DNA of 64,000 nucleotides. Source: Hypoxylon rubiginosum (taxonomy: Eukaryota; Ascomycota; Sordariomycetes; Xylariales; Hypoxylaceae). A program made the translations under genes and the position numbers. Below are positions 42,244 through 59,274 of this stretch, one piece after another; the stretch's first letter is position 1; every line of letters begins with the position of its first letter. The stretch lies in the NCBI GenBank assembly GCA_902806565.1, contig CADCXA010000055.1, positions 992,001 to 1,056,000 of the forward strand, given 5' to 3'. A model generated the notes under the pieces. That model was given only the letters and a program-made list of their open reading frames with translations, had not been told where the DNA came from and did not search any database.

Positions 42244-44225
42244 ATGGCGACGCCACCCAAGCAGGTTTCTCAGGTCACTGAAGTATCGCCCGAGCTCACG
42301 AGCGGCAAGATGGAGGAGACGACGAAATCCTCGGATTTCGAAGAGACCACGCCGACTGCGGTCAGTACTAGCAACGAGGAGGAGGGAGAGCATCATGATG
42401 ACCTATCGAGGCTCGAGAGGATCCAGACGAACTTCGGGGACCGCCCCGAATGCTTCAAGAACACCTTCCAGGAGATCTCCTTCGTGTTCCAGGCCACTGT
42501 CGCGACCGCCACCACCTCGTTCCTGATGGGCGTCGGCATGATCATCACGGTCCCCGTCTCGCGGGACCTGGGCATGACGCAGGGCGAGATAGCGTGGATC
42601 AGCGCCTCGACGTCGTACGTTTAGACTATCTCCCTTTCGCGTCCTACTCACCTTTTGAGAAAAAAATTTGTGGGGGGGTTTTTTTTAACGCTGCTAATAT
42701 TTGCAAACCCCCAGCCTCGTAGCCGGCGCCCTCCAGCTCGCCCTCGGGCAGCTCGCGGACCTGCTAGGCCGCAAGGCCATGTTCATAACGGGCATGGCCA
42801 CGTTCAGCGCGTTCGCGCTCCTGGTGGCCTTCTCGCAGAACCCCTTCTGGATGCTCATCGTCTGCGGCATCCTGGGCGCGTGCTCGGCCATGGTCGTGCC
42901 GCCGGCCATCGGGGTCCTCGGCGCCGCCTACGCGACCCCCTCGAAGCGGAAGAACATGGCGTTCTCGGCCTTCAGCGCGGGCAACCCGTTAGGCTTCGTC
43001 TTCGGCATCATCCTGTGCGGCATCGCCACCCAGCTCTCCAGCTGGAGGGCCGCCTTCATCATGCTCTGCATCATCTGGGCCGTGTTCACCGTCCACGCGG
43101 TATGGGCCGTGCCGAGCGTGGAGAGCTTCGATCGAGCCCCATTTAAGCAGCGGTTGGGAAGGCTGAAGGAATTTGACTACGTCGGCACCATTCTGACCAT
43201 CTTTGGCACGGGCATGTTTACGGCCGGTTTGACGTAAGTCCTTCTCAAATCGTGCCAGCTTCAGAGTACTGACGAAACTAGGTTGGGCCCCGAGGATGGT
43301 TGGGCAAAGGCACATGTCATTGCGTTGATCGTCGTCGGCGTCGCATTACTTGTCATCTTCGTCGTGTGGGAGAAAATGTTCCCAACCCCCTTGATGCCTC
43401 TGCACATTTGGAAGGACCGGAACTTTAGTCTCGTAAGTCCATCAGTCCCAAGATACCTATCTTACTAAGGAGCTGACTCGCTATAGATTATCGGTGTTGT
43501 CATCCTCGGCATGATGAGCTTCACGTCCAGCGGCTTCTGGACTGCCTTCTTCTTGCAGGAGATCAAGCAGTTTTCCACACTTATGGTCGCCGTACACCTT
43601 CTTCCGATGGCCGTTGCAGGGCTGCTTTGGAACATTATTGCCGGCCGTATCTTGCACAAAGTCAACAACACGGTCATCATGATCTTCGGCTCTGTGTGCT
43701 ATCTCGCTGCTAGCTTGCTATTTTCCTTTATTAGGCCGGATACTAGCTATTGGGCAATGATGTTCCCTGCGCTGATCTTAAACGTAGCTGGTGCGGATTT
43801 CCAGTTCAACGTCGCCAACGTAAGCCCCGTTTCCCAACTCTGGATGTATGATTTCGTCTGACAATCATTAGATGTACGTGATGCAGTCGCTACCTAAGCA
43901 TCAGCAATCTCTCGCGGGCGGCATCTTCAATATGGTCATCCGGTTGTCCAACACTGCCATCATGGGAATATCAACGGCGGTATTCAGCTCGGTAGAAATG
44001 ACAGCAGAAGGCATGACCGATCCGATGGTCAAATTCACTAGGACATTTCAGGTGTCAGTGGCTCTCTCTGCCGTCGGTCTGCTGTTGTCGGTCTTCATTC
44101 GGTTAGGAACGCAGGGTAATCACCCGAAGGAAGAGACACAGGAGGAGGAAAAGAACCAGTCCGAGAACTCAACGGTCATAGTCGCTAGTACGCGTGACAG
44201 CGAGCTGGAAGAAAAGAAGGCGTGA
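42244..44225 (+). CDS. MFS transporter, DHA2-like (14-TM drug:H+ antiporter family)
   Basis: Five exons, 42244-42614, 42715-43233, 43282-43432, 43487-43819 and 43872-44225, encode 575 residues. An acidic cytosolic N-terminus of about 85 residues precedes the membrane domain. MFS motif A is present as GQLADLLGRKAM after TM2. The TM5 region has GILGACSAMVVPPAIGVLG, in the position of the antiporter motif C. The number of hydrophobic segments (about 14) and the TM13 stretch GIFNMVIRLSNTAIMG fit the DHA2 group that includes yeast Atr1 and YOR378W. These export drugs, boron or other small molecules from the plasma membrane. The substrate cannot be deduced. The C-terminal tail is Glu/Lys-rich. The gene is convergent with the next one, with only 107 bp between the stop codons. 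Confidence 0.9.
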
Positions 44226-56591: not shown

Positions 56592-58568
56592 TCATACGAA
56601 TATGGTCTCTATAATAAAATCGCAAAACTCCTCGATGCTGGGCACTTTACCACCTGGAATCATATGTCCCAGGCCTTTATTTCCGTGACGAAAACCACCT
56701 CCGTCTTCGAGGTACGCCTTCTCCGCGTCGGATAGCTCTCTCTTTTCGCATTCTCTCCACTTTCGCTCGGCTTCCGCTTTGGCCTTTCGGAGTATCTCGT
56801 CGGTATTCTCGGCCTCCCATAGATTGCATTTGTTGCATTCCTTACATCGTCGTCCGTCGCCTTCGGGTCTAAAGTGCTGACAGAAATGTTGATATCCTTC
56901 GTTCGGTGTACCGATGTCCTTGCGACAGACATAACACATCTTATAGCCGCAGGGACAGGTCAGCTTGTTGCATCCAGCTGTCTTCACAAATGATGTGCTG
57001 CAGCGCGGACAGACGCGTTTGACTGCCATCGACATGGCCTGCTCCACCTGCGTGCGCAAAGCGACAAGAGACGACTCGTGGCAGACGTGGATATCCACCC
57101 ACGCTTTCGAACATGACAGGCAAGACGAACGCGCGCAAGCCGGATTCTGACAGGTGAACTTCAATCCGCGACGACGACGCTGATACCGGTCGAGTGCTGC
57201 TTTGAGATGTTGAGATGCGTAGTCCCTAAATGACCGATTGAAACAGAGGAGACCGCAGACTAGCGATATCATCAGAGTAGGAAAGGAAAATGGTGGCAAG
57301 AGAAAGCAGATGAAGGTGATAATAATCGTAGGAAGATTGCTAGTGCGGAGCTTAGGCCGGCGTGCATGTGCCGGCATATATAGATCGTCGATCTCGGCGT
57401 AGCTGCAGAACGGGCACCGGATGAGAGGCAATCCGCTAGATAGAAGGCCGTGCTCCGCCAGGCGTTGGTCTAACTTCCGTATGATCTCGTCCCCATTCTT
57501 CGCGCTTCGCATAGCTCGATGAATATGCTCAGACGATACACAGCCTTCGCACTCTATCGATGCGACAGCAGGGCACCGAAGACCACCCGTTTCCTTGTCG
57601 ATGCTACGTTGCCAACCCTGTCCGAAGACCGCTTCGGTGATGGAATGCTGAACACAGTGAAAACAGACCATATGGCCTTCCGTACCGCAGACGGTGAGTT
57701 CCTCGAAAATAGCATCTCCATAACAGCAACTACATTCGTACGTTGCTTCAACGGCTTCGGCTTCCTCAGTAAGCAGGGAAACGGCCAAGGCGCGATCACT
57801 CTCTTCCCTCGCAAGTCGTTCGCGTCGCTTCAGTGGCATAATCAGCTCCTCAAATAATTCTCTATCCAACTCGGAGCTGCCGGTTGCCTTTAGAGTCGGT
57901 ATCATGGTCCCATTGTCGGAGGGGGTCCATATAATAAGCGGGTGGGTTGCTGCCTCAGCAGAAGTTACCGTCTTACGACGGAAGAATAGAGAAGATATGG
58001 CAAACTTCCAGGACCTAGAAGACAGGTCTACAAGGGTCGATCGGGCATCGAGATAGGAGTAGTTGTATTCGGACAAAACGGCGTCGATGGAGGACTTGGA
58101 TATGCCCTTGAATTCCTGCGTCGCCAGGGCTCGCACCGCATCCTTATATTCCGCCGTTCGGAACGCATCGGCTCGCGACACTAGGGTGGTCGAGTCGGGA
58201 GTAGTATGCTCGCCGGCTCTCCGTCGACCCTTTACGAATTCCCCAGGATTTTTTAACAGCTTGTCGGTGATGATGAATAACCGCGACTCTTCCGAAAACG
58301 ATGCGAGCATCTCCCTGAAGACTTCTATCTGTATGTTGGGAAACAGCCCGGCGAGCATCTCGAGGTTTTGGTTGAGATCGAGGACATCTTGTGGCGGTTG
58401 GTTGGCAGGCTGGAGCTGCGACTCGTCGAAAAGATATTCAGGAGGATGATCGAGGGTTCGCGCTCGGGACGGTGAGACTTCGGGAGAGTCTCTAGAGGAT
58501 TTGGACTTGTTTGATCTGAAGGAAGCATTCCGGCCCGAAGAAGGGCGTAGCAGACTTGAGAGAAACAT
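56592..58568 (-). CDS. RBR-type E3 ubiquitin ligase (RNF216-like)
   Basis: A single exon of 658 residues from the ATG at 58568; the frame extends further only through a TTG. The first 270 residues are Ser/Arg-rich, then helical, with a CUE-like stretch (NLEMLAGLFPNIQIEVFREML, residues ~67-87). RING1 starts at CSCCYGDAIFEELTVC (about 279) with HMVCFHCVQ. The IBR region has CQNPACARSSCLSCSKAW (about 473-490). RING2 reads CPRCSTSFVKTAGCNKLTC, whose GCNK cysteine (about residue 533) is the expected catalytic thioester site, then CGYKMCYVC. RBR ligases pass ubiquitin through this cysteine to a substrate. Unusually, a strongly hydrophobic stretch (about residues 412-443) sits between RING1 and IBR and could span or enter a membrane. 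A Leu/Lys/Glu-rich helix follows RING2. Confidence 0.9.
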   Translation of the reverse strand: MFLSSLLRPSSGRNASFRSNKSKSSRDSPEVSPSRARTLDHPPEYLFDESQLQPANQPPQDVLDLNQNLEMLAGLFPNIQIEVFREMLASFSEESRLFIITDKLLKNPGEFVKGRRRAGEHTTPDSTTLVSRADAFRTAEYKDAVRALATQEFKGISKSSIDAVLSEYNYSYLDARSTLVDLSSRSWKFAISSLFFRRKTVTSAEAATHPLIIWTPSDNGTMIPTLKATGSSELDRELFEELIMPLKRRERLAREESDRALAVSLLTEEAEAVEATYECSCCYGDAIFEELTVCGTEGHMVCFHCVQHSITEAVFGQGWQRSIDKETGGLRCPAVASIECEGCVSSEHIHRAMRSAKNGDEIIRKLDQRLAEHGLLSSGLPLIRCPFCSYAEIDDLYMPAHARRPKLRTSNLPTIIITFICFLLPPFSFPTLMISLVCGLLCFNRSFRDYASQHLKAALDRYQRRRRGLKFTCQNPACARSSCLSCSKAWVDIHVCHESSLVALRTQVEQAMSMAVKRVCPRCSTSFVKTAGCNKLTCPCGYKMCYVCRKDIGTPNEGYQHFCQHFRPEGDGRRCKECNKCNLWEAENTDEILRKAKAEAERKWRECEKRELSDAEKAYLEDGGGFRHGNKGLGHMIPGGKVPSIEEFCDFIIETIFV

Positions 58569-59102
58569 TTTCTTATGTCGTGTCAAATGACCTTGGGGGG
58601 CAAACCATCGTAGCCGTCGGTGTTGCTTGAGCGGTTTCTCGAACTGGAATGAGATGGACTACTAAGGTCCCTTATAAGATAAGCCTATTGGTCGGGAAGT
58701 TCGTATTCGTAGAGGCTCGCAACTTTCGTCGTACGAGGACGGCTCCTCGCAAGATTATTTTCAAAGAAAGGTGTGGGAGATGGAAAAGAACATGAACTTG
58801 GGAGAGTGAATGACATGAATTAAAACTGGCGATGGAGTCGCGTTGGAGGCAACTGAGGCAACTGACTTCGTACACTAATACACACAGATGATTTCCGATT
58901 TCCAACATTGGGGTAGGTACATGTACTATGTATACAGGTATATGTAAATATGGGTCCGTGCAGGGGCGGACAGGGGCGGATCGGCTACTTTCAATTTTAG
59001 TGGGTCCATCCCCCAACTAGCTTACGCTGCCCCACAAGTGTGCATGAATTGCGCTTTGGTACATAAAGGACTATTTCACTCCCTCCATCACAACAACAGA
59101 GC
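58569..59102. other. Promoter region of the RBR gene and upstream flank of the tRNA
   Basis: About 530 bp, presumably with the RBR ligase leader and promoter on the minus strand. GTACATGTAC and TATACAGGTATA palindromes occur around 58918-58943. No coding-like frame seen. Confidence 0.55.
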
Positions 59103-59138
59103 GGCTCAATGGTCTAGTCGTATGATTCCCGCTTCGGG

Positions 59139-59169
59139 TGAACCTGAATCCAATCATTCTAAATGATAC
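59139..59169 (+). other. Canonical tRNA intron (after position 37)
   Basis: A 31-nt insert between G37 (59138) and T38 (59170). Its CCTGAA (59143-59148) pairs with the anticodon-loop TTCGGG (59133-59138) with one G-U wobble, as in standard anticodon-intron pairing used by the tRNA splicing endonuclease. Confidence 0.75.
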
Positions 59170-59183
59170 TGCGGGAGGCCCCG

Positions 59184-59234
59184 GTAATTTCATAACCCCC
59201 AGATATGAATAAAACAATAGCTAACAGTTTCTAG
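59184..59234 (+). other. Spliceosomal-type intron-like insert in the T-stem of tRNA-Pro
   Basis: This 51-nt segment begins GTAATTTC, contains GCTAACA (59220-59226) with the branch A at 59224, and ends TTTCTAG, 10 nt after the branch. These are normal signals and a normal size for introns in this genome. Removing exactly this segment rebuilds the T-stem as CCGGG opposite CCCGG. The insert could alternatively be an unrelated insertion with accidental GT/AG ends. Confidence 0.6.
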
Positions 59235-59264
59235 GGTTCAAATCCCGGTTGAGCCCGACTCACC

Positions 59265-59274
59265 TTTCTTTTTT
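59265..59274 (+). terminator. Pol III terminator of tRNA-Pro
   Basis: TTTCTTTTTT begins nine bases after the discriminator base of the tRNA. Runs of four or more T are RNA polymerase III terminators. Confidence 0.8.

Follow-up and report, generated by a model that had tools for sequence, protein, structure and literature searches.

Whether an intron of the kind removed by the spliceosome can come to lie inside a nuclear tRNA gene, and what then becomes of that gene, is a question raised by a locus in the wood-inhabiting fungus Hypoxylon rubiginosum. Proteins encoded in the DNA agree with this species or a very close relative as the source: a Fox2 query assembled from exons of the window is 100% identical over its 753 residues to H. 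rubiginosum P0241, and the last exon of an MFS transporter is 100% identical to H. rubiginosum P0121. In the stretch of DNA analyzed here (the window, 64,000 nucleotides), positions 59103-59256 form a tRNA-Pro(CGG) gene that is interrupted twice, by segments of 31 and 51 nt. The sequence favors the reading that the longer of these is a spliceosomal (U2-type) intron sequence, which was probably gained seamlessly in a redundant second tRNA-Pro(CGG) gene. From the same sequence we infer how it was gained, that the gene is a Pol III template, that the insert could be spliced, and in which order the processing steps would follow.

A Complete tRNA upon Removal of the Insert

In the unspliced DNA, ARAGORN calls no tRNA at this locus, whether in the window or in the extracted loci (L001, L032, L039, and L077), and in Rfam searches the unspliced locus has no match at the gathering score and none at E ≤ 1 either. 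When the insert is deleted in silico, ARAGORN recognizes a tRNA-Pro(cgg) of 72 bases that contains a 31-nt intron, in agreement with an earlier note on this DNA, which had claimed that the gene is complete only if two segments are removed. As the program is lax in this setting (at least 424 tRNA calls over 4417 sequences, namely 4416 deletion variants and the intact locus), the boundaries of the insert are not fixed by ARAGORN alone. They are fixed by the equality of length and stems with those of the intact CGG gene of the same genome (L038): without the insert the tRNA has 71 bases plus the discriminator, the length of L038, and 20 of its 20 stem pairs are standard. The boundary can slide by one base in either direction, which gives three registers, one of them GT..AG. 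Excision in that register restores the T-stem, as had been proposed, and the coordinates previously given for the two interruptions (59139-59169 at 37/38 and 59184-59234 in the 5′ strand of the T-stem) prove to be exact. Once the insert is removed, the gene displays the cloverleaf, CGG anticodon, and 37/38 intron of a nuclear tRNA-Pro(CGG).

Table 1. Layout of the twice-interrupted tRNA-Pro(CGG) gene in window coordinates
Feature	Position	Strand	Content or basis
Exon 1	59103..59138	+	Acceptor 5′ strand, D arm, anticodon stem and loop to position 37
A box (assigned) TGGTCTAGTCG	59110..59120	+	Usual apart from G18 to C at 59119
First intron, 31 nt at 37/38	59139..59169	+	Ordinary tRNA intron, without GT..AG
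Exon 2	59170..59183	+	Anticodon stem 3′ strand, variable loop, T-stem 49-51
Spliceosomal-type insert, 51 nt, between positions 51 and 52	59184..59234	+	Donor GTAATT, branch site GCTAAC (59220-59225), acceptor TAG
Exon 3	59235..59255	+	T-stem 52-53, T loop, 3′ strands of T-stem and acceptor
B box (assigned), unbroken, opens exon 3	59235-59245	+	Sequence
Discriminator C	59256	+	Sequence
T-rich run TTTCTTTTTT with T6, possible Pol III terminator	59265..59274	+	Sequence

The A-box and B-box assignments are those that we take from the box consensus, and the T-rich run is presumed to be a possible terminator by the T-run rule. Because the insert ends exactly where the B box starts, this promoter block is uncut. 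In the predicted fold the 5′ part of the first intron pairs with the anticodon loop, and the fold of the precursor is not unusually stable (z = -1.36, with 19 of 200 shuffles folding equally well).

The Insert Judged as a Spliceosomal Intron

The fungal branch site has been described as RCTRAY, 6-36 nt upstream of the acceptor (available portion of PMC5832005). The GCTAAC of the insert falls inside that range, with 10 nt from the branch-site A to the last G, and in one of the three registers the insert has GT and AG ends at 59184-59185 and 59233-59234. The standard of comparison is a set of 17 introns from the same genome, of which 7 in the window were obtained by spliced alignment to H. rubiginosum proteins (lengths of 48, 52, 53, 54, 86, 100, and 141 nt) and 10 with a P450 profile derived from the genome itself; the latter are less certain than the former, and none was dropped. 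Intron L103 has two equal solutions, of which GTAAGG (77 nt) was chosen over GTCACG, and in L095 the P450 profile yields one intron candidate per strand. An ab initio collection of introns (39 candidates over 314,603 bases) was discarded whole and uncounted, since most of them appeared by eye to be wrong-strand frames. Among the introns of the window, the first in the MFS gene (42615-42714) is 100 nt long and contains a G7 + T8 run; the other three in that gene measure 48-54 nt.

At 51 nt the insert has a length usual for this genome, in which the reference introns extend from 48 to 141 nt and 5 of the 17 fall between 48 and 54, and the previously remarked likeness in length to nearby mRNA introns holds for those of the window (48-141 nt). 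A matrix score of donor, branch site, and acceptor, computed for the reference introns in leave-one-out fashion, gives 19.6 for the insert, more than for 12 of the 17 reference introns. Neither 60,000 random 51-mers from the window nor 60,000 full shuffles of the insert included a sequence scoring as high; among 60,000 shuffles confined to the interior, with GT and AG retained, 0.17% did. The mRNA-intron signature that had been ascribed to the insert, with GT at its start and a branch site 10 nt before a TAG end, is supported by a score beyond that of all the random 51-mers. One feature had been missed by the earlier note: the donor, GTAATT, has T at +5 and so lacks the G that is usual there, though not obligatory. 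That G is present in 16 of the 17 reference introns (15 with the other solution for L103), including all 7 of the homologue-guided ones, and the single exception, GTAATA in L093, has T at +5 like the insert. That the insert is an intron in origin can be held with considerable confidence.

Other tRNA-Pro Genes and the State of This Copy

A pattern search with up to three mismatches over the genome (48.27 Mb in 70 contigs) found eight tRNA-Pro genes: five AGG (L036 being assigned to AGG by reading), one TGG, and two CGG. The wider tRNA set comprises 78 ARAGORN calls in 77 loci, with duplicated loci and one or more false long-intron calls among them; it was seeded from 63 scored of 1644 candidates, by gathering methods that are blind to T-arm inserts. 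The other tRNA-Pro(CGG) gene, on contig C53 (L033, L038), is complete and has a single intron of 14 nt. An intron at 37/38 occurs in all seven of the other tRNA-Pro genes found (that of L036 is placed there by reading, ARAGORN misplacing it), and it is with these fungal tRNA-Pro introns that the first intron of the interrupted gene belongs, whereas the 51-nt insert does not. L036 itself (C62:435796), a tRNA-Pro(AGG) that ARAGORN names Asn, stands out by the length of its intron, which the program puts at 54 nt and which is read as sitting at 37/38. A further misnaming is seen at L066 (C12:315055-315172), a tRNA read as Lys(TTT) with a 44-nt intron in the anticodon loop, to which ARAGORN gives the name Ala.

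Position 18 is C in the insert-bearing copy and G in all seven of the other tRNA-Pro genes found, each of which has GG at the A-box site; we take this position to be where the D loop touches the T loop and to be part of the A box. Decay of the D-stem, suggested by a U13-U22 mismatch, was considered and dropped. T22 is common to five of the seven other genes (L036 and L040-L043), the remaining two having G (L037) and A (L038), so that only the loss of G18 counts as damage. Together with the existence of a spare gene, this loss fits a copy that has been weakened or recently freed from selection, and for these two reasons a weak or inactive gene is likelier than a productive one. Among the observations that the earlier note had named as telling against its reading was an intact single-intron CGG gene elsewhere, with the present copy silent; of these two parts the first, the intact gene, is there on C53.

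The same loss of G18 from the D loop and A box, the intact paralogue, and the donor lacking +5 G are also what might be seen in a pseudogene, that is, a dying tRNA copy in which a chance insertion of 51 nt merely resembles an intron. This explanation is improbable in view of an intron score that none of the random 51-mers or full shuffles matched, the seamlessness of the insertion, and the preservation of the stems. The insert-bearing copy differs from L038 at six of 71 positions with all 20 stem pairs kept, an outcome that six random changes give in 2.5% of 300,000 simulations. The pair 28-42, which is T-A in six other tRNA-Pro genes and G-C in L038, is C-G in the insert-bearing copy; a pair changed on both sides and still kept, along with the complete stems, points to a functional past.

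Genomic Surroundings and the Transcript

mRNA-type introns belong as a rule to Pol II RNAs. From this rule, and from the intron anatomy of the insert alongside a changed A box, it could be argued that the insert is spliced out of a long Pol II RNA running through the locus, in which the tRNA, now a relic, serves as an exon. The surroundings make such a transcript quite unlikely. The nearest protein gene, an RBR-type gene (frame 56592-58658) that is 90% identical to Hypoxylon sp. FL1284, lies on the opposite (-) strand, and no + strand open frame of at least 120 codons is listed downstream of 58449, although a non-coding RNA would still be compatible with this. From ~59500, ~250 bases downstream of the tRNA, there begins an AT-rich block, perhaps a region of the repeat-induced-mutation type, with a GC content of ~0.06-0.12 to the end of the window (64000) and of ~0.1 for 2 kb beyond it (L077). 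Moreover, a long RNA would have no evident reason to keep all of the stems of a tRNA.

An intron of the tRNA endonuclease is the other kind of insert to be considered. The insert lies at 51/52, not at 37/38. When examined for the strict bulge-helix-bulge (BHB) motif in its accepted geometry, none of the three registers forms it, the central pairs numbering 1, 3, and 0 of 4 and the outer pairs 0, 1, and 0 of 4; the best of these values, 3 central and 1 outer, belong to the GT..AG register. By the strict motif the insert is unlike a tRNA-endonuclease intron in every register. Position alone does not rule out the endonuclease, for the nuclear tRNA-Ile(UAU) of Cyanidioschyzon merolae has a T-arm intron at 53/54 that, like the Hypoxylon insert, occurs in addition to an intron at 37/38; in that organism T-arm introns are processed before the anticodon intron (PMC9602550, in the part available, where the 53/54 intron is not described as GT..AG). 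The Hypoxylon insert differs from it in its position at 51/52, in its splice signals, and in having no strict BHB. Thus a non-canonical tRNA intron cut by the endonuclease, despite the C. merolae precedent and the three central pairs of the GT..AG register, is hardly credible, since the strict motif is missing and GT, branch site, and AG would all have to be coincidence.

Further Copies and Origin of the Insert

The earlier note had suggested a search of the genome for similar 51-nt inserts, as introner-like copies: a 67-base query matches itself alone at E ≤ 10 in the genome, and at the same cut-off neither a second copy of the insert nor a parent intron was found. Split tRNAs were sought with a 2520-base concatenation of 35 tRNA sequences (40 of 119 candidates scored, 44 matches), which recovered L036 in two pieces and missed the insert locus itself. 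Two patterns combining a branch site with a B box occur at 4 and 2 places, one of them shared and the tRNA-Pro locus itself being among them, as against 1 and 0 for the reversed-pattern control. One place of this kind, on the - strand (G000:C2:20579-20614), carries CTAAC, then CAG, then a B-box-like GGTTCGAAGCC, the arrangement seen at the tRNA-Pro locus; the reversed-pattern control also gave one match. As for other structured RNAs, no spliceosomal intron was found in the two above-cut-off U6 matches or the two U3 matches of the genome. Both U6 genes match their model end to end (100 and 104 bases) and so hold no intron, two more U6 matches fall below the cut-off (17.1 and 15.2 bits), and the U3 matches span 301 and 295 bases for a model of 274 positions.

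At either end the insert has one base in common with the adjoining exon, which, with the normal length of the empty tRNA, indicates that there is no target-site duplication. Seamless gains without such duplications have been described by Fekete and colleagues for stwintrons and derived introns in the Hypoxylaceae and Xylariaceae, and these authors propose that intron RNA is patched into double-strand breaks at random sites (available parts of PMC12403724, PMC8469720, and PMC9024468). Those introns resemble the insert in coming from the same fungal family, in their seamless new positions, and in lacking target-site duplications. As portrayed in the available text, the published gains sit in protein genes and are similar to one another in sequence, whereas the insert is 51 nt long, lies in a tRNA gene, and has no genomic copy at E ≤ 10; the term tRNA does not occur in the main texts of the three papers. 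Five sister stwintrons have been counted in H. rubiginosum (parts of PMC12403724 and PMC8469720), and for this species the accessible part of PMC8469720 reports no cropped sister introns of the canonical kind. Sister stwintrons are marked by similar copies in the genome, of which the insert has none at E ≤ 10, the published sisters being compared by description only. Given this, and the absence of reported cropped sisters, the insert is not placed in a proliferating intron family. The likely route of gain would be the one proposed for protein genes of the Hypoxylaceae, with the RNA of a U2-type intron patched into a DNA break within the T-stem of the redundant second tRNA-Pro(CGG) gene, seamlessly and with no target-site duplication.

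Processing, Precedents, and Implications

Were the interrupted gene transcribed by Pol III, its transcript would have to meet the spliceosome, as happens to U6 transcripts in some fungi. Removal of the 51 nt at GT..AG would rebuild the T-stem, and excision of the intron at 37/38 would fall to the tRNA endonuclease. That the gene is alive in this sense, with the spliceosome acting first at 59184/59234 and the endonuclease afterward to give a tRNA in need of both systems, is a possibility on which we would not rely, and productive splicing into a mature tRNA is in our judgment equally doubtful. The insert appears spliceable in principle, and the output of tRNA is probably low. Of the three readings offered in the earlier note (a tRNA requiring both splicing systems, a recent intron insertion into a Pol III gene, and an inactivated copy), the intron anatomy stands and gain of an intron by a redundant copy is favored; the intact paralogue and the loss of G18 suit a copy that is weakened.

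As of 2017, frequent interruption by an intron was known among small structured RNAs for U6 snRNA and U3 snoRNA alone (portion available of PMC5832005). Where fungal U6 and U3 genes have such an intron, it is of the form GT..RCTRAY..YAG and lies within a small structured non-coding RNA. The tRNA-Pro gene shares these features, and U6 is a Pol III transcript, as is proposed for this gene. The present case differs from U6 and U3 in that the host is a tRNA that also has a 37/38 intron and in that it is a single locus, known from DNA alone and accompanied by an intact paralogue. Another source asserts that every major RNA type has introns of every class and, in its accessible part, does not name a spliceosomal tRNA intron (PMC11782384). 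Searches restricted to open-licence literature, a scope outside which most subscription papers lie, brought up no tRNA gene described as having an intron of the spliceosomal kind.

If true, the acquisition of such an intron by a tRNA gene would mean that in these fungi it does not matter for intron gain which polymerase transcribes the target or whether the target is coding, and it bears on the model in which introns originate from RNA patched into breaks. If the gene is silent, it would be a clear example of insertion of an intron into something other than a protein gene. If the insert is spliced, one tRNA would depend on two unrelated splicing machines, and both the access of the spliceosome to Pol III tRNA transcripts and the order in which the two machines act would become testable.
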